DNA of 64,000 nucleotides from Desulfatitalea alkaliphila (GTDB taxonomy: Bacteria > Desulfobacterota > Desulfobacteria > Desulfobacterales > Desulfosarcinaceae). Below, in pieces: positions 2,847 through 19,616 of this stretch. The position numbers and the translations under genes are program-made. The notes below the pieces were generated by a model. The model made no database searches and was not told where the DNA came from. It saw nothing but the letters and a program-made list of their open reading frames with translations. How positions within the stretch are numbered: the stretch's first letter is position 1; every line of letters begins with the position of its first letter. Location of the stretch: NCBI RefSeq assembly GCF_022968795.1, contig NZ_JALJRB010000007.1:124001-188000 (forward strand). The letters are read 5' to 3'.

Positions 2847-3156
2847 AGAGAACACCCTCCATATCATCCAGTGGGCTTGTTGGGGAGGCCAACGGCCAGG
2901 GCAGACGCATCTGCTGAATCCGGCACCTCATCACGACCAAACGCAACCTTCGGTCATAATGGCGGATTTCCGGCAGACGGTAAGGGGCGGTGAATCATCG
3001 GCGGCATGGTAACACCTCGGCGGCTTAATTGATGCTCAGGTCATCAAAATTTCTGAAACTACCAAAACAGGTGTTTGGTGTCAAGGCAGCATAATAATCA
3101 CGAATCGGCGCGGTGCTACCCTCGAACGAAGAAAAAACAATGTTCGGCGGGAAAAC
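2847..3156. other. Intergenic region upstream of dnaG and downstream of hisB
   Basis: About 310 bases between two minus-strand genes. I see no plausible coding frame, no tRNA and no convincing T-tailed hairpin. It presumably holds the dnaG-rpoD promoter, but I could not single out a -35/-10 pair. Confidence 0.4.
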
Positions 3157-9264: not shown

Positions 9265-9837
9265 TCAGGCATGGCCGGCCGTGCCGGACAAGGCATGGGG
9301 ATCGATTCCCAGCTTTTCGATAGCCCTTTGCCAACGCTCCGGCGGCGGAATGTCGAAAATAATGTCGCGACTGCCCGGGGTGACCAGCCAGGCGTTTTGG
9401 CTCATCTCCCATTCCAACTGCCCCGGCCCCCATCCGGCGCAACCCAGGGTGATCAGAAAGTCCTCAGGCCCCTCGCCGCGGGCGATGGCTTCAAGTATGG
9501 CGCGTGAATTGCTCAAAGCCAGCGTATCGCCGATGCGCAAACTGTCGGGCCAATCCAGGGGTGGTCCATGCAGTACGAAGAGTTCATTGGTGTGCACCGG
9601 CCCGCCGACATGGATGGCCAGGGACGCTGCCGCCGGGCTGTTCGGTATCTCCAGCTCGTCGAAAATCATGCGCCCTTCGACCCCCTCATAAATTTGATTG
9701 ATTACCACACCCACGGCACCTTCATCCGTATGGGCGGCAATGCACGTCACGGACTGCCTGAAATTGGGGTCCATCAGCGTGGGCATGGCCATCAGCAGGT
9801 ATCCCTGCAATGATGTGGAAGGAAAAAGTTGTTCCAT
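9265..9837 (-). CDS. YqgE/AlgH family protein
   Basis: Conserved protein family of uncertain function, first met as AlgH in Pseudomonas alginate regulation. Family traits are present: LQGYLLMAMPTL near the N-terminus, GAVGVVINQ, the HVGGPV segment and LGCAGWGPGQLEWE. I choose ATG 9837, which gives 190 residues, the usual family length, with GAGGGTG 6 nt upstream. The frame continues 32 codons upstream to 9933 but that part looks non-native. It is monocistronic, with a shared terminator at its 3' end. Confidence 0.88.
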   Translation of the reverse strand: MEQLFPSTSLQGYLLMAMPTLMDPNFRQSVTCIAAHTDEGAVGVVINQIYEGVEGRMIFDELEIPNSPAAASLAIHVGGPVHTNELFVLHGPPLDWPDSLRIGDTLALSNSRAILEAIARGEGPEDFLITLGCAGWGPGQLEWEMSQNAWLVTPGSRDIIFDIPPPERWQRAIEKLGIDPHALSGTAGHA

Positions 9838-10088
9838 GTGCGGCACCCTCGATGGTTGACGGCCGATGGATTCGGCATTCGTTTGTTCGACAAAGCCAAA
9901 TGAATCCCTATCATAAAAACCGCGCCCCAACAAATCCGGCGTCGCGCAGGGTGAATTGCCTGCGGCATGTCGACGATCGAAGCCTGAAAATAATATGATG
10001 GAAATTCATTCGGATGGACGTTTGTGATCCTGGCCGAAAGCGTGTCCGGCAAGATTTTGACTTGCACCTGTTTTTGTGAAGAAAATTC
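9838..10088. other. Intergenic region between algH and the ilv promoter
   Basis: Divergent spacer holding the algH start signals on the minus strand and the upstream DNA of the ilv operon. No gene, tRNA or clear operator is recognised. A second TTGACT hexamer at about 10056 could be an alternative -35 for the ilv transcript. Confidence 0.35.
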
Positions 10089-10118
10089 TTGACACTGCGG
10101 GACGCCTGTTGCTAAACA
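10089..10118 (+). promoter_or_regulatory. Promoter of the ilv operon
   Basis: A consensus -35 TTGACA (10089-10094) is followed by an 18-nt spacer and TGC-TAAACA, an extended -10 (10113-10118). Transcription would begin near 10125, about 20 nt before the leader peptide start. Confidence 0.55.
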
Positions 10119-10145
10119 GCCGATAACTCGCTTAGGATTGCCGAA

Positions 10146-10235
10146 ATGAAACGCCATATTGCCCGAATCATCCTTATCAACCTTATTATTCTCGTACTCG
10201 GTGTCATTGGCGGCGCCGGGCCAAAGGGGCGGTAA
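10146..10235 (+). CDS. ilvL: ilv operon leader peptide, 29 residues
   Basis: A short frame with ATG at 10146 and TAA at 10233-10235. Residues 8-21 are almost all branched: IILINLIILVLGVI, 12 of 14 being Ile, Leu or Val, and 13 of 29 overall. The tail GGAGPKGR resembles the basic Gly-rich end of enterobacterial IlvL. Ribosome stalling at these codons when charged Ile, Leu or Val tRNAs run low would leave the downstream antiterminator free to form. AGGATT lies about 8 nt upstream as a modest ribosome site. It sits between a strong promoter and a terminator directly before ilvD, the classic attenuation layout. It is too short for usual gene finders. Confidence 0.85.
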   Translation: MKRHIARIILINLIILVLGVIGGAGPKGR

Positions 10236-10309
10236 TGGTGTAAGCAAAATCCCCGGTGCAACAAACAAACCGTTACCCGCCCCGAATGGCCGGTAACGGT
10301 TTTCTTTTT
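10231..10309 (+). promoter_or_regulatory. ilv attenuator: antiterminator and intrinsic terminator
   Basis: The terminator stem AAACCGTTACC (10267-10277) pairs with GGTAACGGTTT (10292-10302). A small inner helix (GCC/GGC) sits in its loop, and the T-rich tail TTTTCTTTTT runs 10300-10309. A competing arm, GGTAATGGT (10231-10239), overlaps the leader stop codon and can pair with ACCGTTACC (10269-10277) over nine positions, one being G-U. That would disrupt the terminator. A ribosome finishing the leader covers the competing arm and allows termination; a ribosome stalled on Ile/Leu/Val codons leaves it free. The ilvD ribosome site GGAGGAG follows at 10310. Confidence 0.85.
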
Positions 10310-10325
10310 GGAGGAGATGATAACA

Positions 10326-11996
10326 ATGAAAAGCGAACAGGTAAAACAAGGTGTGGAACGCGCGCCCCACCGCGCACTGCTCAAGGCTTGCGGATACACG
10401 GACCATGAGATTCGGCGTCCCCTGATCGGCATCGCCAATTCGGCCAACACCGTCATCCCCGGCCATGTCCATTTGAATACCCTGGCCGAGGCGGTCAAGG
10501 CAGGGATTTACATGGCCGGCGGCACACCGGTGGAATTCGGCATCATCGGTGTCTGCGACGGTATCGCCATGAATCACGAAGGCATGAAATACTCGCTGGC
10601 CAGCCGGGAGCTGATCGCCGATTCGGTGGAAATCATGGCCAAGGCGCACAGCCTGGACGCCTTGGTGATGATCCCCAATTGTGACAAGATCGTTCCGGGC
10701 ATGTTGATGGCGGCGGCCCGCCTGGACCTGCCGACCATTTTCGTCAGCGGCGGCCCCATGCTGGCCGGCCGCGATCCCCGGAATGCGGGGGCCGGCAAGA
10801 TCGACCTGATCACGGTGTTCGAAGCCGTCGGGGCGGTCAAGGCAGGCCGCATGAACGAAGGCGAGCTCGCCGCCATCGAGGATGCCGCCTGCCCCACCTG
10901 CGGCTCCTGCGCGGGCATGTTCACCGCCAACTCCATGAACTGCCTGACCGAAGCCATCGGCATGGGACTGCCCGGCAACGGCACCATTCCGGCGGTGATG
11001 GCGGCCCGCACCCGCCTAGCCAAACAGGCCGGCATGCAAATCCTCTCCTTGTGGGAAAAGAATATCACCCCGAGCCGCATCATGACCCCCGAGGCCTTCG
11101 GCAATGCCCTGGCGGTGGACATGGCTTTGGGCTGTTCGACCAACACGGTGCTTCACCTGGCCGCCATCGCCCGGGAGGCAGGCGTGCCCTTCGAGCTGGA
11201 CCAAATCAACACCATCAGCGGCCAGACGCCACACCTCTGCTCCTTGAGCCCCGGCGGCATTCACCATATCGAAGATTTGGATCGTGCCGGCGGTATTCAG
11301 GCGGTGCTCAAATTGCTGGCCGCCGCCGGACGGATCGATGAAACCTGCATCACCGCCACCGGGTGCACCGTGGGCGAGAACATTGCCGCCGCAAGGGATG
11401 CCGACCCGGAAGTGATCCGATCCTTGGACAACCCCTATCATGCCACCGGCGGACTGGCGGTGCTGCGCGGCAACCTGGCCCCCGACGGCTGCGTGGTCAA
11501 ACAGACGGCCGTTCGACCTGAGATGATGCGCCACAAGGGCCCGGCCCGCGTATTCGAATCGGAAGAGGAAGCCACGGCGGCCATTCTCGGCGGCCGCATC
11601 CAGGCGGGCGACGTGGTGGTGGTGCGCTATGAGGGCCCCAAGGGCGGACCCGGCATGCGTGAAATGCTCACCCCCACATCGGCCATTGCCGGCATGCAAC
11701 TGGACGGCCAAGTAGCGCTGCTCACCGACGGACGCTTCTCCGGCGGCACCCGCGGCGCCGCCATCGGCCACATTTCGCCCGAAGCCGCGCAAGGCGGACC
11801 GATCGCCCTGGTCCAGGAGGGCGACATCATCACCATCGACATACCGGCCAAGGCGATCTCCCTGGAGGTGGATGAACAGCAACTGGAAACCCGCCGCAAG
11901 ACCTGGCAACCACCCGCACCGCGGGTGACAAAAGGGTATCTGGCGCGCTACGCCGGCGCCGTCGGCTCAGCCGCCGGAGGCGCCGTTTTCGAATAG
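10326..11996 (+). CDS. ilvD: Dihydroxy-acid dehydratase IlvD
   Basis: Fe-S enzyme that dehydrates 2,3-dihydroxy-isovalerate and -methylvalerate to the 2-oxoacids in valine and isoleucine synthesis. The product has 556 residues, normal for IlvD. Diagnostic segments are [14 protein letters not shown] near the N-terminus, the cluster cysteines in [10 protein letters not shown] and [16 protein letters not shown], and the C-terminal [11 protein letters not shown] use ATG 10326, 9 nt after GGAGGAG. A TTG at 10308 would start within the attenuator tail. It is the first structural gene of ilvDBNC-cimA-leuA, as expected for an enzyme under Ile/Val-sensing control. Confidence 0.97.
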
Positions 11997-12075
11997 GCAT
12001 GCAGGGTAAAGGGCGCCGCTCGAGGCGGCGTCGAACCCACCGTTGTCGAAACGATCAAGGAATGGAAACAGCACA

Positions 12076-13761
<1,686 letters not shown>

Positions 13762-13860: not shown

Positions 13861-14358
13861 ATGAAATCCGAAAAACATACATTGACCATGCTGGTGGATA
13901 ACGAGCCGGGCGTCTTGTCCCGGGTGGTGGGCCTGTTCAGCGGCCGGGGATTCAACATCGACAGCCTGTGCGTGGCGGAAACCATGGATCCCAAGGTGTC
14001 GCGGATCACCATCGTCACCCAGGCCAACCCGCTGCTGTTGGAACAGATTGAAAAGCAGTTGCGCAAACTGATCAATGTGGTCAAACTGCGCGAAATGTCC
14101 GATGACCGGGCGGTACGGCGCGAAATGGCGTTGATCTGCGTTCACGCCCGAGCGGAGAATCGGGACGAAATCTTGCGCCTGGTCAATCTGTTCCGGGCCA
14201 AGATCATCGATGTGGCATCCAATTACTACATCATCGAAGCAAGCGGCGACGCGGACAAGATGACTGCCCTGATCGGGCTGCTCAAACCCATGGGCATCAA
14301 GAAAATCGCCCGCACCGGCACCGTCGCCCTTTACCGGGAACCCAAACGGGGCATTTAA
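13861..14358 (+). CDS. ilvN: Acetolactate synthase small (regulatory) subunit IlvN
   Basis: Regulatory subunit that confers valine feedback inhibition on IlvB. The product has 165 residues. An N-terminal ACT domain begins HTLTMLVDNEPGVLSRVVGL with the effector-site FSGRGFNIDSL. A second conserved segment, RAKIIDVASNYYIIEASG, follows, then the terminal GIKKIARTGTVAL. The long form matches IlvN/IlvH of about 160 residues. It sits between ilvB and ilvC in the operon. Confidence 0.97.
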   Translation: MKSEKHTLTMLVDNEPGVLSRVVGLFSGRGFNIDSLCVAETMDPKVSRITIVTQANPLLLEQIEKQLRKLINVVKLREMSDDRAVRREMALICVHARAENRDEILRLVNLFRAKIIDVASNYYIIEASGDADKMTALIGLLKPMGIKKIARTGTVALYREPKRGI

Positions 14359-14417
14359 CCGTTCAACAAGTTGTGCGAACCTTCGCATGGCAATTCACTA
14401 AAGGAGAGATTAACACC

Positions 14418-15473
14418 ATGGCACAGATCGATTTTGGCGGAGTTGTGGAAGAGGTGATCACCTCGGAAGAGTTCACCCTGGAAAAAGCGCGGCAGGTGTT
14501 GGCCGACGAAACCATTGCCGTGCTGGGGTACGGCGTGCAGGGCCCGGCCCAGGCGCTGAACATGCGGGACAACGGTTTCAAGGTGATCATCGGTCAACTG
14601 GAGTCGGACAAGGTTTACTGGGACAAGGCCGTGGCCGATGGCTTCGTGCCCGGCGAAACCCTTTTCTCCATCGAAGAGGCGGCCAAGCGGGCCACCGTGA
14701 TCCAATATCTGCTCTCCGATGCAGGCCAGATGGCCACCTGGGACGCGGTCAAGGCTTGTCTGAACCCCGGTGACGCCCTTTACTTCTCCCATGGTTTCTC
14801 CATCGTCTACAAGGACCAGACCAAGATCATTCCGCCGGACAACGTGGATGTGATCCTGGTGGCGCCCAAAGGCTCCGGACGTAATGTGCGGATGAACTTT
14901 TTGGACGGCAGCGGCATCAACTCCAGTTTCGCCATCTTCCAGGACGCCACCGGCCGCGCCAGGGAGCGCACCCTGGCCTTGGGCATCGCCATCGGTTCGG
15001 GCTACCTCTTTCCCACCACCTTCGAAAAAGAGGTCTACAGCGATTTGACCGGTGAGCGGGGCGTTTTGATGGGCTGTTTGGCCGGCGTGATGGAGGCCCA
15101 GTACAACCTGCTGCGCAAACACGGCCACAGCCCCAGCGAAGCTTTCAACGAGACCGTCGAAGAGCTGACCCAGAGCCTGATTCGCCTGGTGGCGGAAAAC
15201 GGCATGGACTGGATGTACGCCAACTGCAGCACCACGGCGCAGCGGGGTGCCCTGGATTGGGCACCCAAGTTCCGGGATGCGGTGGTGCCGGTTTTCGATC
15301 GGTTGTACGAAAGCGTAATCGACGGCTCGGAGACCCGCCGGGTGCTGGAAGCCAACAGTACCCCCGACTACCGCGAGAAACTGAATGCGGAGCTGGCCGT
15401 CATCGGCGATTCGGAAATGTGGCGAACCGGCCGTGCCGTGCGCAGTCTGCGTCCGGAGAACCGAGGAAAATAG
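14418..15473 (+). CDS. ilvC: Ketol-acid reductoisomerase IlvC
   Basis: Rearranges and reduces acetolactate or acetohydroxybutyrate to the dihydroxyacids. At 351 residues it is a class I (short) enzyme. The Rossmann motif is VLGYGVQGPAQALNMRDNG; the coenzyme-specificity loop reads IIGQLESDKVYW, unusual in having no Arg/Ser-Arg cluster typical of NADPH-specific enzymes. The Mg-binding site is in GERGVLMGCLAG with a downstream EAFNETVEE. I choose ATG 14418 with AAGGAGAG 9 nt upstream. Whether it prefers NADH or NADPH cannot be settled by eye. Confidence 0.95.
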   Translation: MAQIDFGGVVEEVITSEEFTLEKARQVLADETIAVLGYGVQGPAQALNMRDNGFKVIIGQLESDKVYWDKAVADGFVPGETLFSIEEAAKRATVIQYLLSDAGQMATWDAVKACLNPGDALYFSHGFSIVYKDQTKIIPPDNVDVILVAPKGSGRNVRMNFLDGSGINSSFAIFQDATGRARERTLALGIAIGSGYLFPTTFEKEVYSDLTGERGVLMGCLAGVMEAQYNLLRKHGHSPSEAFNETVEELTQSLIRLVAENGMDWMYANCSTTAQRGALDWAPKFRDAVVPVFDRLYESVIDGSETRRVLEANSTPDYREKLNAELAVIGDSEMWRTGRAVRSLRPENRGK

Positions 15474-15496
15474 AAGGGCAAAAAGAGATAATTGTC

Positions 15497-17089
15497 ATGG
15501 AAAAGGTACTGATCTACGACACCACCTTGCGCGACGGCAGCCAGGGGGAGAACATCAGCTTCTCCTCCGACGAAATGCTGAGCATCGCCAAGCGATTGGA
15601 CCAGATCGGCGTCCATTACATCGAGGGCGGGTGGCCCGGCTCCAATGCCCGGGACGCCCGCTTTTTCGAACTGGCCGCCAGGGAAGGTTTCGTCAACGCA
15701 CGCATAACGGCCTTCGGCAGTACGCGCAAACCTTTCACCGAAGCTGCCGACGACCGCAATCTGCAAGCCTTGATCGACAGCCGGGCCCCGGCAGTGGCCA
15801 TCGTGGGCAAGTCCTGGACCCTGCACGTGGAGCAGATCATGGAGAACACCCGGGAAGAGAACCTGGCCATGATCCGCGACAGCATCACCCTGATGAAAGA
15901 TCACGGGCGTGAAGTGATCTACGATGCCGAACATTTCTTCGACGGTTATCGGGAAGATGCGGCCTATGCCCTGGAGACGGTGACGGCGGCGGCCCGCAGC
16001 GGCGCCGACGCCGTCATCCTCTGCGACACCAACGGCGGCACCCTGCCCTTCGACATCGAAACCGTTTTCGACCAGGTCCGCCGATCCCTGGCGGCACAGG
16101 ATCTGCCGGTGCGCCTGGGTATCCATGCGCATAACGATTGCGGCCTGGCGGTGGCCAACAGCATCGCGGCCGTGCGCACCGGTGCGACCATCGTTCAAGG
16201 GACCATCAACGGCTACGGCGAACGGTGCGGCAATGCCGACCTGATCACCATCATTCCCATCCTCAACCTGAAGATGGGACGCGCCTCCATTCCCGACGAC
16301 CGTTTGGCGCAACTGAAAATCCTTTCCCGGTTCGTCAGCGAAACGGCCAACCTGGTGCCTCTCAACTCCCGCCCCTTCGTGGGCCGCAGTGCCTTCGCCC
16401 ACAAAGGCGGCCTGCACGTCAACGCCATCATGAAAGCACCCCGGGCCTATGAGCATATCGATCCCGCCCGGGTGGGCAACAAGCGACGGGTGCTGATGTC
16501 CGACCTGGGCGGTAAAAGCAACGTGGTGTACAAAGCCAAGGAGTTGGGGGTGGAACTGGGGTGCAACGGCCTGGACTGCCAGCGCATCGCCACCGAGATC
16601 AAAACCTTGGAGGATCAGGGATACCAATTCGACGTGGCGGACGGATCGATGAAGATTTTGCTGCAGAAATTCACCGAACAGTTCAAGCCGCTTTTCGAGC
16701 TGCAATCGTTCCGCGTCACCGTGGAAAAGAACCAGTCCCAGCCTTGCACGGCCCAAGCCACCATCAAAATCGCCGTGGACGGCAACGATGAAATCACCGC
16801 CGCCGAAGGCGACGGGCCGGTCAGCGCCTTGGACAACGCCCTGCGCAAGGCCCTGGCCAAATTCTACCCCGGACTGGAGGCCATGCGCCTGGTGGATTTC
16901 AAAGTGCGGGTGATCGACGGCAGGGAAGGAACTGCGGCCCGGGTGCGGGTCTTCATCGAATCCCGGGACCACAACGACATTTGGAGCACCATCGGGGTCT
17001 CCGAAGACATCATCGAGGCCAGCTGGCACGCCCTGGCGGACAGCTTTCAGTACAAGTTGGCCAAACAGCAGGAACAGACCGAAGGATGA
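15497..17089 (+). CDS. cimA: (R)-citramalate synthase CimA
   Basis: Condenses pyruvate with acetyl-CoA to citramalate, giving 2-oxobutyrate for isoleucine without threonine. The product has 530 residues. The start VLIYDTTLRDGSQGENISFS and the segment HYIEGGWPGSNARDARFF are typical of the Geobacter-type citramalate synthases, distinct from LeuA next door ([15 protein letters not shown]). Metal-binding HAHND (IHAHNDCGLAVANS) and INGYGERCGNADL are present, with a C-terminal LeuA-type allosteric domain. I use ATG 15497, 23 nt after ilvC. The longer frame from 15257 only overlaps ilvC. No ilvA is in the operon, fitting the citramalate route (inference). Confidence 0.93.
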   Translation: MEKVLIYDTTLRDGSQGENISFSSDEMLSIAKRLDQIGVHYIEGGWPGSNARDARFFELAAREGFVNARITAFGSTRKPFTEAADDRNLQALIDSRAPAVAIVGKSWTLHVEQIMENTREENLAMIRDSITLMKDHGREVIYDAEHFFDGYREDAAYALETVTAAARSGADAVILCDTNGGTLPFDIETVFDQVRRSLAAQDLPVRLGIHAHNDCGLAVANSIAAVRTGATIVQGTINGYGERCGNADLITIIPILNLKMGRASIPDDRLAQLKILSRFVSETANLVPLNSRPFVGRSAFAHKGGLHVNAIMKAPRAYEHIDPARVGNKRRVLMSDLGGKSNVVYKAKELGVELGCNGLDCQRIATEIKTLEDQGYQFDVADGSMKILLQKFTEQFKPLFELQSFRVTVEKNQSQPCTAQATIKIAVDGNDEITAAEGDGPVSALDNALRKALAKFYPGLEAMRLVDFKVRVIDGREGTAARVRVFIESRDHNDIWSTIGVSEDIIEASWHALADSFQYKLAKQQEQTEG

Positions 17090-17220: not shown

Positions 17221-18759
17221 ATGACCGAAATCGTCAAAATCTTCGACACCACCCTGCGCGACGGCGAACAGTCCCCCGGCGCGACCATGAACACCGGCGA
17301 AAAGCTGCGCCTGGCCATGCAGTTGGAAAAGCTGGGCGTGGATATCATCGAAGCCGGATTCCCCGCCGCCTCCGAAGGGGACTTCGACGCCGTGGCCCAG
17401 ATCGCCGGCAAGCTCAAGCGCACCGAAGTGGCCGGCCTGTGCCGCACCGACAAGCCCGACATCGACGCCGCCTGGGGGGCCATCCGGCATGCGGTCAAAC
17501 CGCGCATCCACACCTTCATCGCCACCTCGGACCTGCATCTGGAGTACAAGCTCAAAAAGACCCGTGACCAGGTGTTGGCCGACATCAAGAAGGCCGTGAG
17601 CTACGCCAAGACCCTGTGCGAAAACGTGGAGTTCTCCGCCGAAGACGGTTCGCGCAGCGATCGCGATTTTCTGTGCCGCGCCTTCGAAGTCGCCATCGCC
17701 GCCGGTGCCACCACACTCAACCTGCCCGACACGGTGGGTTACGCCATCCCCAGTGAATTCGCCGAACTGGTCCAATACGTGATGCAGCACACCCCCAACA
17801 TCCACCAGGCCGTGCTCAGCGTCCACTGCCACAACGACCTGGGGCTGGCCACGGCCAACACCCTGGCGGCCCTGGCCGTCGGCGCCCGCCAGGCCGAAGT
17901 GACCATCAACGGCATCGGCGAACGGGCGGGCAACACCTCCCTGGAGGAGGTGGTGATGGCCCTGCACACCCGCAGCAACCTGCTGCCCCTGACCACCAAC
18001 ATTCAGACCGAGCAGATCCATCCCACTAGCCGTCTAGTGAGCATGATCACCGGCATCATGGTCCAGCCCAACAAGGCCATCGTCGGCGCCAACGCCTTTG
18101 CCCACGAAGCGGGCATCCATCAGGACGGGGTGCTCAAAAACCCCATGACCTATGAAATCATGCGCCCGGAAACCATCGGCCTGAGCGCCAACAAGCTGGT
18201 GTTGGGCAAACATTCGGGCCGCCACGCATTGCGCGACCACCTGAAGAATCTGGGTTACGATTTGTCGGCTGAAGAGCTGCAGGTGGTGTTCACCCGCTTC
18301 AAGGCACTGGCCGACAAGAAAAAGCATGTGATGGATGAGGATCTGGAAGCCATCATCACCGAAGGGGTGCTGCGCACCCACGAGACCTTCGTGCTGGAGT
18401 ACCTGCACGTCACCGCCGGCACCACCGTGCTGCCCATGGCCAGCGTCAAACTGGCCATCAACGGCCGTTCGGTCCAGGGGGCCGGCTATGGCAACGGTCC
18501 CATCGATGCCGCCTACAACACCATCGCCAAGCTCACCGGCACCGAGGCCGAACTGATGCGATTCTCCATCAGCGCCCTGACCGGCGGCACCGATGCCCAG
18601 GGCGAAGTGACGGTCCGCTTAAGAGAAAACGGACTTGTGGCCCTGGGCCGCGGTTCGGACATGGACATCATCACAGCCAGCGCCTTGGCCTTCGTCAACG
18701 GCTTGAACCGTTTGGAATACCTGAAAACCCATCCGGTTGAAAAGGCCCAAAGCCTCTAA
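17221..18759 (+). CDS. leuA: 2-isopropylmalate synthase LeuA
   Basis: Condenses 2-oxoisovalerate with acetyl-CoA, the first committed leucine step. The product has 512 residues, the long bacterial form with a C-terminal regulatory domain. The catalytic start is [16 protein letters not shown], the metal-binding motif is [14 protein letters not shown], and [18 protein letters not shown] and [15 protein letters not shown] are further signatures. The regulatory domain closes with [17 protein letters not shown]. It is the last biosynthetic gene of the operon. leuC, leuD and leuB are not in the window. Confidence 0.97.
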
Positions 18760-18821: not shown

Positions 18822-19616
18822 ATGGTGACGGACATGACGAACCATGCAGACAACTTGGCGCGCCTGCGGGAACTGATTGCCCAAAGCAGTCGAATGGTCG
18901 CTTTCACCGGGGCCGGCATCAGCACCGAATCTGGCATTCCCGACTTTCGCAGCCCCGGCGGCTTGTGGACCAAATACCGGCCCATCGAGTTTCAAGACTT
19001 CATGGCATCCGAAGAGATGCGGCGGGAATCGTGGCACATCAAATTCGCCACCGAGAAGGTGATTGCCGACGCCAAGCCCAATAAGGGACACCTGGCACTG
19101 GCCCACCTGTACCGACAAGGCAAATTGAGCAGCGTCATCACACAGAACATCGACGGGCTGCACCAGGTGTCGGGCATCCCCGACGACCGGGTGATCGAGC
19201 TGCACGGCAACACCACCTACGCCCTCTGTCTGGATTGTCATCAGCGCTACGAATTGGACCAGATACGGGCCATCTTCCTGCCCGATGAAACCGTCCCCCA
19301 TTGCGACCGGTGCGGCGGTTTCATCAAAACGGCCACCATCTCCTTCGGCCAGGCCATGCCGGTCGAGGAGATGCGTCGCGCCGAAGAGGAGACCCTGGCC
19401 TGCGATCTGTTCGTGGCGCTGGGATCGTCGCTGGTGGTTTTCCCGGCCGCCGGTTTTCCCTTGATGGCCAAACAGAACGGCGCCCGCCTGGTCATCATCA
19501 ACCGGGATGCCACCAAGCAGGACCCCTATGCGGACCTGGTGATCAACGGTTCCATCGGCGAGGTGTTGGGCGGTCTGCTGGACGGTGATGAATTATCAAT
19601 GGGAAGGGACGATTAA
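18822..19616 (+). CDS. cobB: NAD-dependent protein deacylase, sirtuin family
   Basis: SIR2 enzyme that removes acyl groups from lysines while consuming NAD. The product has 264 residues. [17 protein letters not shown] (NAD-binding), TQNIDGLH, the catalytic His in ELHGN, a four-Cys zinc site (CLDC and CDRC) and [16 protein letters not shown] are all present. The start could be ATG 18822 or ATG 18834; neither has a strong ribosome site. It follows leuA by 62 nt beyond a large hairpin. Its stop overlaps the stop of the convergent pyrD by 4 nt. Sirtuins often regulate acyl-CoA-dependent metabolism, but a link to the leucine operon is not shown. Confidence 0.9.

Follow-up and report, generated by a model that had tools for sequence, protein, structure and literature searches.

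Evidence for a branched-chain amino acid transcription attenuator upstream of ilvD in Desulfatitalea alkaliphila and its relatives

The ilvD locus and its leader region

We examined a stretch of 64,000 nucleotides of Desulfatitalea alkaliphila (hereafter the window, always at its full length), which carries an ilvD-ilvB-ilvN-ilvC-cimA-leuA operon preceded by a short leader ORF and several alternative RNA stems (Table 1). The gene content had been proposed from the letters alone in an earlier note, and each of the six genes is now named by an NCBIfam match; the Desulfobacterota setting proposed there is likewise in line with the closest relatives that carry a name (Desulfobacteraceae, Desulfobacterales). 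The true cimA start probably lies at about 15500, given where the family match begins in its ORF. The IlvC protein passes the general ilvC model (301.7 vs 226.15 bits) and misses the cut-off of the narrower PRK05479 (206.8 vs 336), scores that mark it as a divergent ketol-acid reductoisomerase. A Sir2-family (CobB-like) deacylase gene is found downstream of leuA on the same strand (18822-19616); on the other side, the upstream neighbour is an AlgH-like ORF on the minus strand (9265-9933), divergent from the ilv operon.

Table 1. Coordinates of the leader features and of the downstream genes, as positions in the window.
Feature	Coordinates	Strand	Basis and remarks
Probable promoter	10089..10118	+	-35 TTGACA 10089-10094; extended -10 TG 10110-10111, TAAACA 10113-10118; spacing 18
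Candidate Shine-Dalgarno AGGA of the leader	10134..10137	+	Sequence
Leader peptide ORF, 29 codons, 13 Ile/Leu/Val	10146..10235	+	Sequence, relatives
Region 1 (5' arm of anti-antiterminator 1:2)	10151..10164	+	Folding; relatives
Hairpin P1 in the leader frame, 10197-10205 with 10212-10220	10197..10220	+	Folding; relatives
Region 2, common to 1:2 and antiterminator 2:3; contains leader stop 10233-10235	10226..10241	+	Folding; relatives
Region 3, common to antiterminator (10269-10275, 10277-10283) and terminator (10267-10277)	10267..10283	+	Folding; relatives
Region 4 (terminator 3' arm 10292-10302) and T-tract to 10309	10292..10309	+	Sequence, folding; relatives
ilvD	10326..11996	+	NCBIfam; start ATG 10326 inferred from sequence; GGAGGAG at 10310-10316
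ilvB, acetolactate synthase large subunit	12043..13761	+	NCBIfam
ilvN, acetolactate synthase small subunit	13861..14358	+	NCBIfam
ilvC, ketol-acid reductoisomerase	14373..15473	+	NCBIfam
ORF with cimA, citramalate synthase	15257..17089	+	NCBIfam; family match from residue 83 onward
leuA, 2-isopropylmalate synthase	17221..18759	+	NCBIfam

Judging from the probable promoter, transcription would start at about 10125, ahead of a leader that translates to MKRHIARIILINLIILVLGVIGGAGPKGR, followed by its stop. Twelve Ile/Leu/Val codons fall within codons 8-21, exactly as the earlier note had counted them, and one more is found at codon 5. Such a density is singular in the window: among the 487 ATG ORFs of 20-40 codons that its two strands contain, the leader alone reaches 10 Ile/Leu/Val per 12 codons, the four runner-up ORFs reaching 7.

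An intrinsic terminator stands between the leader and ilvD, with a stem formed by 10267-10277 and 10292-10302 and followed by TTTTCTTTTT, in full agreement with the first description of the locus. The antiterminator is longer than first described: the arm 10231-10239 and its overlap with the leader stop were correctly placed, but the stem comprises 14 pairs rather than 9, with 10226-10239 facing 10269-10275 and 10277-10283 around one bulge, so that the stop codon TAA (10233-10235) sits inside the antiterminator arm. The same note had seen no clear 1:2 stem, a statement that has to be withdrawn: 10151-10164, which corresponds to leader codons 2-7, pairs with 10227-10234 and 10236-10241, and such a pairing is backed in relatives (see below). 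The full-length fold (-54.0 kcal/mol) contains 1:2 with the hairpin P1, a probable pause hairpin, nested inside. As they share their arms, 1:2, 2:3 and 3:4 are mutually exclusive; regions 1 and 3 are near-copies of each other (CC[A/G]TTATC type), region 1 being at the same time made up partly of Ile codons.

Occurrence, conservation and covariation in relatives

We searched for ilvD in 60 relatives, 57 of which gave a match, and in genome contigs, from which 80 loci were kept. The element precedes ilvD in 29 of the 30 relative loci that were fetched (L002-L031, missing at L026) and in 6 of the 26 genome-contig loci inspected out of the 80, several of the 20 loci without it coming from other phyla. 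After removal of two duplicates, 33 elements made up the set A1, in which the leader of L016 was counted from its upstream ATG; they share leaders of 25-33 codons, an arm of the GGGGCGATAATGG type and a terminator of the form CCGTTATC...GATAACGG. Aligning the region upstream of ilvD had been put forward as a check in the earlier note, and in this alignment the leader frame is conserved together with its Ile/Leu/Val codons, and so are the terminator and the antiterminator, with covariation. The sequence-based objection named in that note, a lack of conserved frame or stems among relatives, therefore does not apply.

A covariance model spanning P1 to the T-tract finds a single plus-strand copy in the D. 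alkaliphila genome, the only other match (E 0.27) being its terminator on the opposite strand. It matches 332 of the 389 sampled genomes of the order, probably Desulfobacterales, leaving 57 without a match; when only good genomes are retained (at least 90% complete, at most 5% contaminated), the figures are 189 of 201 and 12. A class-level search matched 224 of 241 genomes that are at least 90% complete, all of the same order and hence no independent sample. Across the phylum, 40 of 395 sampled genomes were matched, 15 in the same order and 25 in other orders. We inspected one locus in each of 15 of these 25 genomes: all have leaders with 7-11 Ile/Leu/Val in 12 codons, 13 of them before cimA and 2 before leuA. 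The most deviant of the 15, L171 (G740:C60), precedes cimA, has a CCGCTGTCAGG...CTGATAGCGG terminator and carries only 7 Ile/Leu/Val in 12 codons of its leader. In an outgroup of 34 genomes reached through the genome-contig loci, nearly all with titles of other phyla, only three gave weak matches (E 4e-5 to 3e-3), and no leader rich in Ile/Leu/Val accompanies any of these.

The gene that follows the element varies within the order: in 60 regions from 59 genomes its best match among the six operon queries is ilvD in 36 cases, ilvB in 21 and cimA in one, and two regions matched none of the six. Three genomes hold a second element (G041:C33, L238; G074:C154, L236; G108:C27, L237). G074 and G108 have one element before ilvB and one before ilvD; in G041, the second precedes a divergent ilvB-like gene (44% identity).

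A first test of the 1:2 stem on 33 relatives, some of them close, had given only a moderate outcome (54/20000 permutations; mean z -0.90; 14/33 below -1), and we thus added those 60 regions to the A1 elements, which left 89 elements once certain rows had been dropped. These were the duplicates L007 (the element of L006), L032 (on the same contig as L022), L174 (the element of L033) and L185 (the element of L034); L229, which has no match at 1e-6; the second, opposite-strand matches in L193 and L196; and L027, where no stop was found within the cut-off, though a leader frame is visible.

The leaders of the relatives are 25-34 codons long. In the densest 12-codon cores of the 89 leaders, Ile/Leu/Val make up 82% of the residues, a figure inflated by the very choice of the densest stretches; their share among I/L/V/F/M/A/W/C residues in those stretches is 98%. 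Phe, Met, Ala, Trp and Cys together account for 16 of 1068 core residues, and Thr for 0.2%. One leader, whose densest 12 codons include no more than 4 Ile/Leu/Val, probably reflects a mis-picked frame and was kept in the set. As for the stop codon, in 85 of the 89 elements it lies in region 2 or no more than 5 nt 3' of it, at three recurrent positions and in two reading frames (52 stops inside region 2, 33 just 3' of its core). In 86 of 88 elements, a -35 TTGACN occurs no more than 120 nt upstream of the leader start, mostly at a distance of 54-64 nt, whereas TTGAC is found in 10.6% of shuffles; an extended -10 TGnTA follows in 13 of 14 elements inspected, under a scoring that favours such a motif. 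Although the promoter is strongly conserved, a Shine-Dalgarno-like motif at -16 to -4 is present in only 20 of 89 leaders.

In order to evaluate the stems, we used a swap test, where the pairing energy of an arm with its own partner is compared with that obtained after exchanging partners between species. For 2:3, own partners gave -18.39 vs -17.07 for swapped ones over the 89 elements, and for 1:2 (leader nt 13-36) -14.98 vs -12.76; in both cases none of 20000 permutations was as low. Three control regions of the same 89 sequences, which share the same relatedness, showed no signal (18267, 7327 and 19951 of 20000 as low). One has to keep in mind that the interval nt 13-36 was picked after the first 1:2 results; the unselected leader nt 1-48 led to the same outcome (-16.53 vs -14.57; 0/20000). 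Reducing the set to one element per family (46 families) again left 1:2 and 2:3 at 0/20000, two controls giving 9670 and 6495.

Resampling the leaders with synonymous codons gave, over the 89 elements, a mean z of -2.70 for P1 (86 below -1) and of -1.21 for 1:2 (48 below -1, one above +1). In some members, 1:2 does no better than its synonymous controls (L004, z +1.27; L025, z +1.20), and two seemingly compensatory versions of region 2 with matching leaders, GACGATGAC in L030 and GACATTG in L043, do not stand out from their own synonymous null (z -0.56 and +0.12, respectively).

On A1, 85.2% of the antiterminator cells pair, and none of the 500 shuffles and no slid register attains its covariation score; 5 of its 14 pairs are changed on both sides (1/500 shuffles), but its number of pair types is reached by 466/500 shuffles. 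The terminator pairs in 95.1% of cells, and its covariation score is likewise higher than in any shuffle or slide; 4 of its 15 pairs are changed on both sides, a count that 81/500 shuffles reach. RNAalifold recovered the terminator alone on A1: the register of P1 differs between genera and the leader length varies, and P1 was therefore tested per sequence, as above, and on A3, a one-register set of 18 of the 33 elements (L009 and L021, which the motif search had also selected, being excluded for their register and L029 re-registered by hand). On A3, the P1 covariation score is reached by 2/500 shuffles and its count of pairs changed on both sides by 64/500. For all three stems, the covariation signal is weaker when pairs or pair types are counted.

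Proposed mechanism and rival explanations

Taken with the layout of the locus, these results leave us strongly confident that it is a complete, classical ribosome-mediated transcription attenuator. The earlier note had claimed as much on the strength of a leader, a terminator and an antiterminator; conservation and covariation in relatives now support that claim, and the 1:2 stem has been added to it. The course of events that follows is modelled, for the pausing at P1 and the read-through under starvation, on the known scheme as given in part of PMC1183508. P1 would fold first and probably pause the polymerase before region 2 has fully emerged, allowing the ribosome to close the gap. Under a shortage of charged Ile-, Leu- or Val-tRNA, whichever of the three may prove the most important, the ribosome would stall in codons 8-21 and hold region 1 (and, further on, P1), so that region 2 would be free to pair with region 3; with 2:3 formed, there would be no terminator and transcription would continue into ilvD. 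With Ile/Leu/Val plentiful, a ribosome ending translation at the stop codon would cover region 2 and transcription would be expected to stop. In an untranslated leader, 1:2 would form around P1 and 3:4 would again be left.

We masked the RNA up to 10286 with a ribosome of assumed footprint (-15 to +14). With the ribosome at codons 2-22, 2:3 is kept (0.95-0.99), and from codon 23 onward it is lost (at most 0.15); the switch thus falls between codons 22 and 23, directly after the last Ile/Leu/Val codon, codon 21. For this RNA and this footprint, the geometry of the regulatory codons and the stop fits attenuation. The complete leader without a ribosome gives 1:2 at 0.99 and 3:4 at 0.98. Two folds are discordant: without a ribosome, the equilibrium of the RNA up to 10286 favours 2:3 (0.98), contrary to the scheme, and in the full RNA with the ribosome placed at codons 12, 13 or 15-22, region 1 reaches round it in the planar model, which predicts the terminator. 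Both come from equilibrium folding, whereas the actual process is co-transcriptional.

The conserved, hydrophobic leader could also be read as the gene of a small membrane peptide with an ordinary terminator behind it and no attenuation at all. Its composition is too narrow for a membrane segment, given the almost exclusive use of Ile/Leu/Val among the eight residues compared above; moreover, the pairings between leader, region 2 and region 3 covary, and P1 beats its synonymous versions in nearly all elements, which makes a membrane peptide extremely improbable. A terminator that serves merely to end transcription from upstream or to insulate the operon would equally be a stem followed by a T-tract; the AlgH-like neighbour, however, runs away from the operon on the opposite strand, and in relatives one of the terminator arms also belongs to a covarying antiterminator. 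We give this reading hardly any credence.

A ligand-binding riboswitch or a T-box governing the terminator, with the short ORF being incidental, would also account for a conserved RNA with a terminator ahead of amino acid genes, and a ppGpp riboswitch is indeed described on ilv operons of other bacteria in the part of PMC10272879 considered here. Nevertheless, Rfam 15 at its curated gathering threshold yields no match in the window and none in the loci of 20 relatives, a search at a relaxed threshold returning only a weak match to mir-451, and what is best conserved is the Ile/Leu/Val codons and the arms that overlap the stop codon. We consider a riboswitch or T-box very unlikely, and the attenuator remains our reading of the locus.

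Relation to known attenuators and other leader-like loci

The classical scheme, as far as the relevant section of PMC1183508 describes it, includes a leader with regulatory codons, regions I-IV with exclusive pairings I:II, II:III and III:IV, and a stop codon in region II. The element has the same parts, exclusive stems and stop in region 2 as the enterobacterial trp, his, leu, thr, ilvGMEDA, ilvBN and pheA attenuators; it differs from them in that regions 1 and 3 are near-copies and that region 1 consists partly of Ile codons. The likeness is one of layout, and we claim no sequence relation.

It also resembles the ilvBNC and ilvB-II leaders of Corynebacterium, which, in the passages available from PMC11857589 and PMC10272879, combine a uORF rich in branched-chain amino acid codons with an anti-antiterminator, an antiterminator and a terminator. 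According to the C. glutamicum model, polymerase pausing is brought about by the apex of the first hairpin (PMC11857589, in part), and P1 nested in 1:2 resembles this apex; P1 was thus not counted as a separate novelty. Corynebacterium belongs to another phylum, its leaders have 15-17 residues vs 25-34 here and, to the extent of the same excerpts, its motif is confined to the ilvB locus, whereas the present element is found before ilvD, ilvB, cimA or leuA. The ilvB-OMG and Leptospira ilvB motifs, located upstream of ilvB, have uORFs rich in branched-chain amino acid codons as well, and attenuation is suspected for them (PMC10272879, in part); as described in that excerpt, their uORFs are also rich in Thr, which is nearly absent from the cores here.

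The main text of PMC2965389 does not mention deltaproteobacteria, ilv or desulfo, nor does that of PMC4833913 mention desulfo or ilv. Our full-text literature search, whose coverage included few subscription papers, returned no report of such an attenuator for this phylum. Two comparative surveys, by Vitreschak et al. (2004) and Lopatovskaya et al. (2010), may include deltaproteobacterial members. The attenuation mechanism itself is classical; the occurrence of the element in most sampled genomes of one order is possibly unreported. On balance, we lean slightly towards an undescribed RNA family, in which one ancestral branched-chain amino acid attenuator would have become a near-universal control of ilv operons in an order of Desulfobacterota, with a related form before cimA or leuA in other orders. 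Its hallmarks would be near-copies in regions 1 and 3 that compete for region 2, a region 1 made partly of Ile codons, and a stop codon that stays at region 2 in different reading frames.

In this way, classical attenuation would be extended to a major anaerobic phylum, with the three stems all present and backed by comparison among relatives. The element amounts to a model-ready RNA family that has no match in Rfam at gathering score, and it suggests how the ilv operons of these bacteria are controlled. It also offers many natural variants in the place of the stop codon, the pause hairpin and the 1:2 stem that could be set against attenuator sensitivity.

Some loci encountered along the way carry leaders of another kind. 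In an unassigned marine bacterium (L099), the ilvD match at 3001 is preceded, at a distance of about 170-60 bases, by an Ile/Leu-rich leader and by a terminator whose sequence is quite different, and covariance model R1 has no match in that genome. In Candidate division CSSED10-310 (L096), a long Ile/Leu/Val-rich ORF occupies about 290-110 bases upstream of where ilvD is matched (3001), and a GAGGTCA...TGACCTC repeat without a clear T-tract adjoins the ribosome binding site, an arrangement that would perhaps attenuate translation rather than transcription. Finally, in a Candidatus Neomarinimicrobiota genome (L240, G798:C76:80300-82200), a short ORF rich in Phe/Tyr, MFKLYQMKNFFDYYYFRSRGTVEA, and a repeat resembling a terminator occupy about bases 160-360. 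They are followed by genes that we take to encode chorismate mutase and DAHP synthase, and this locus may possibly be an aromatic amino acid attenuator.
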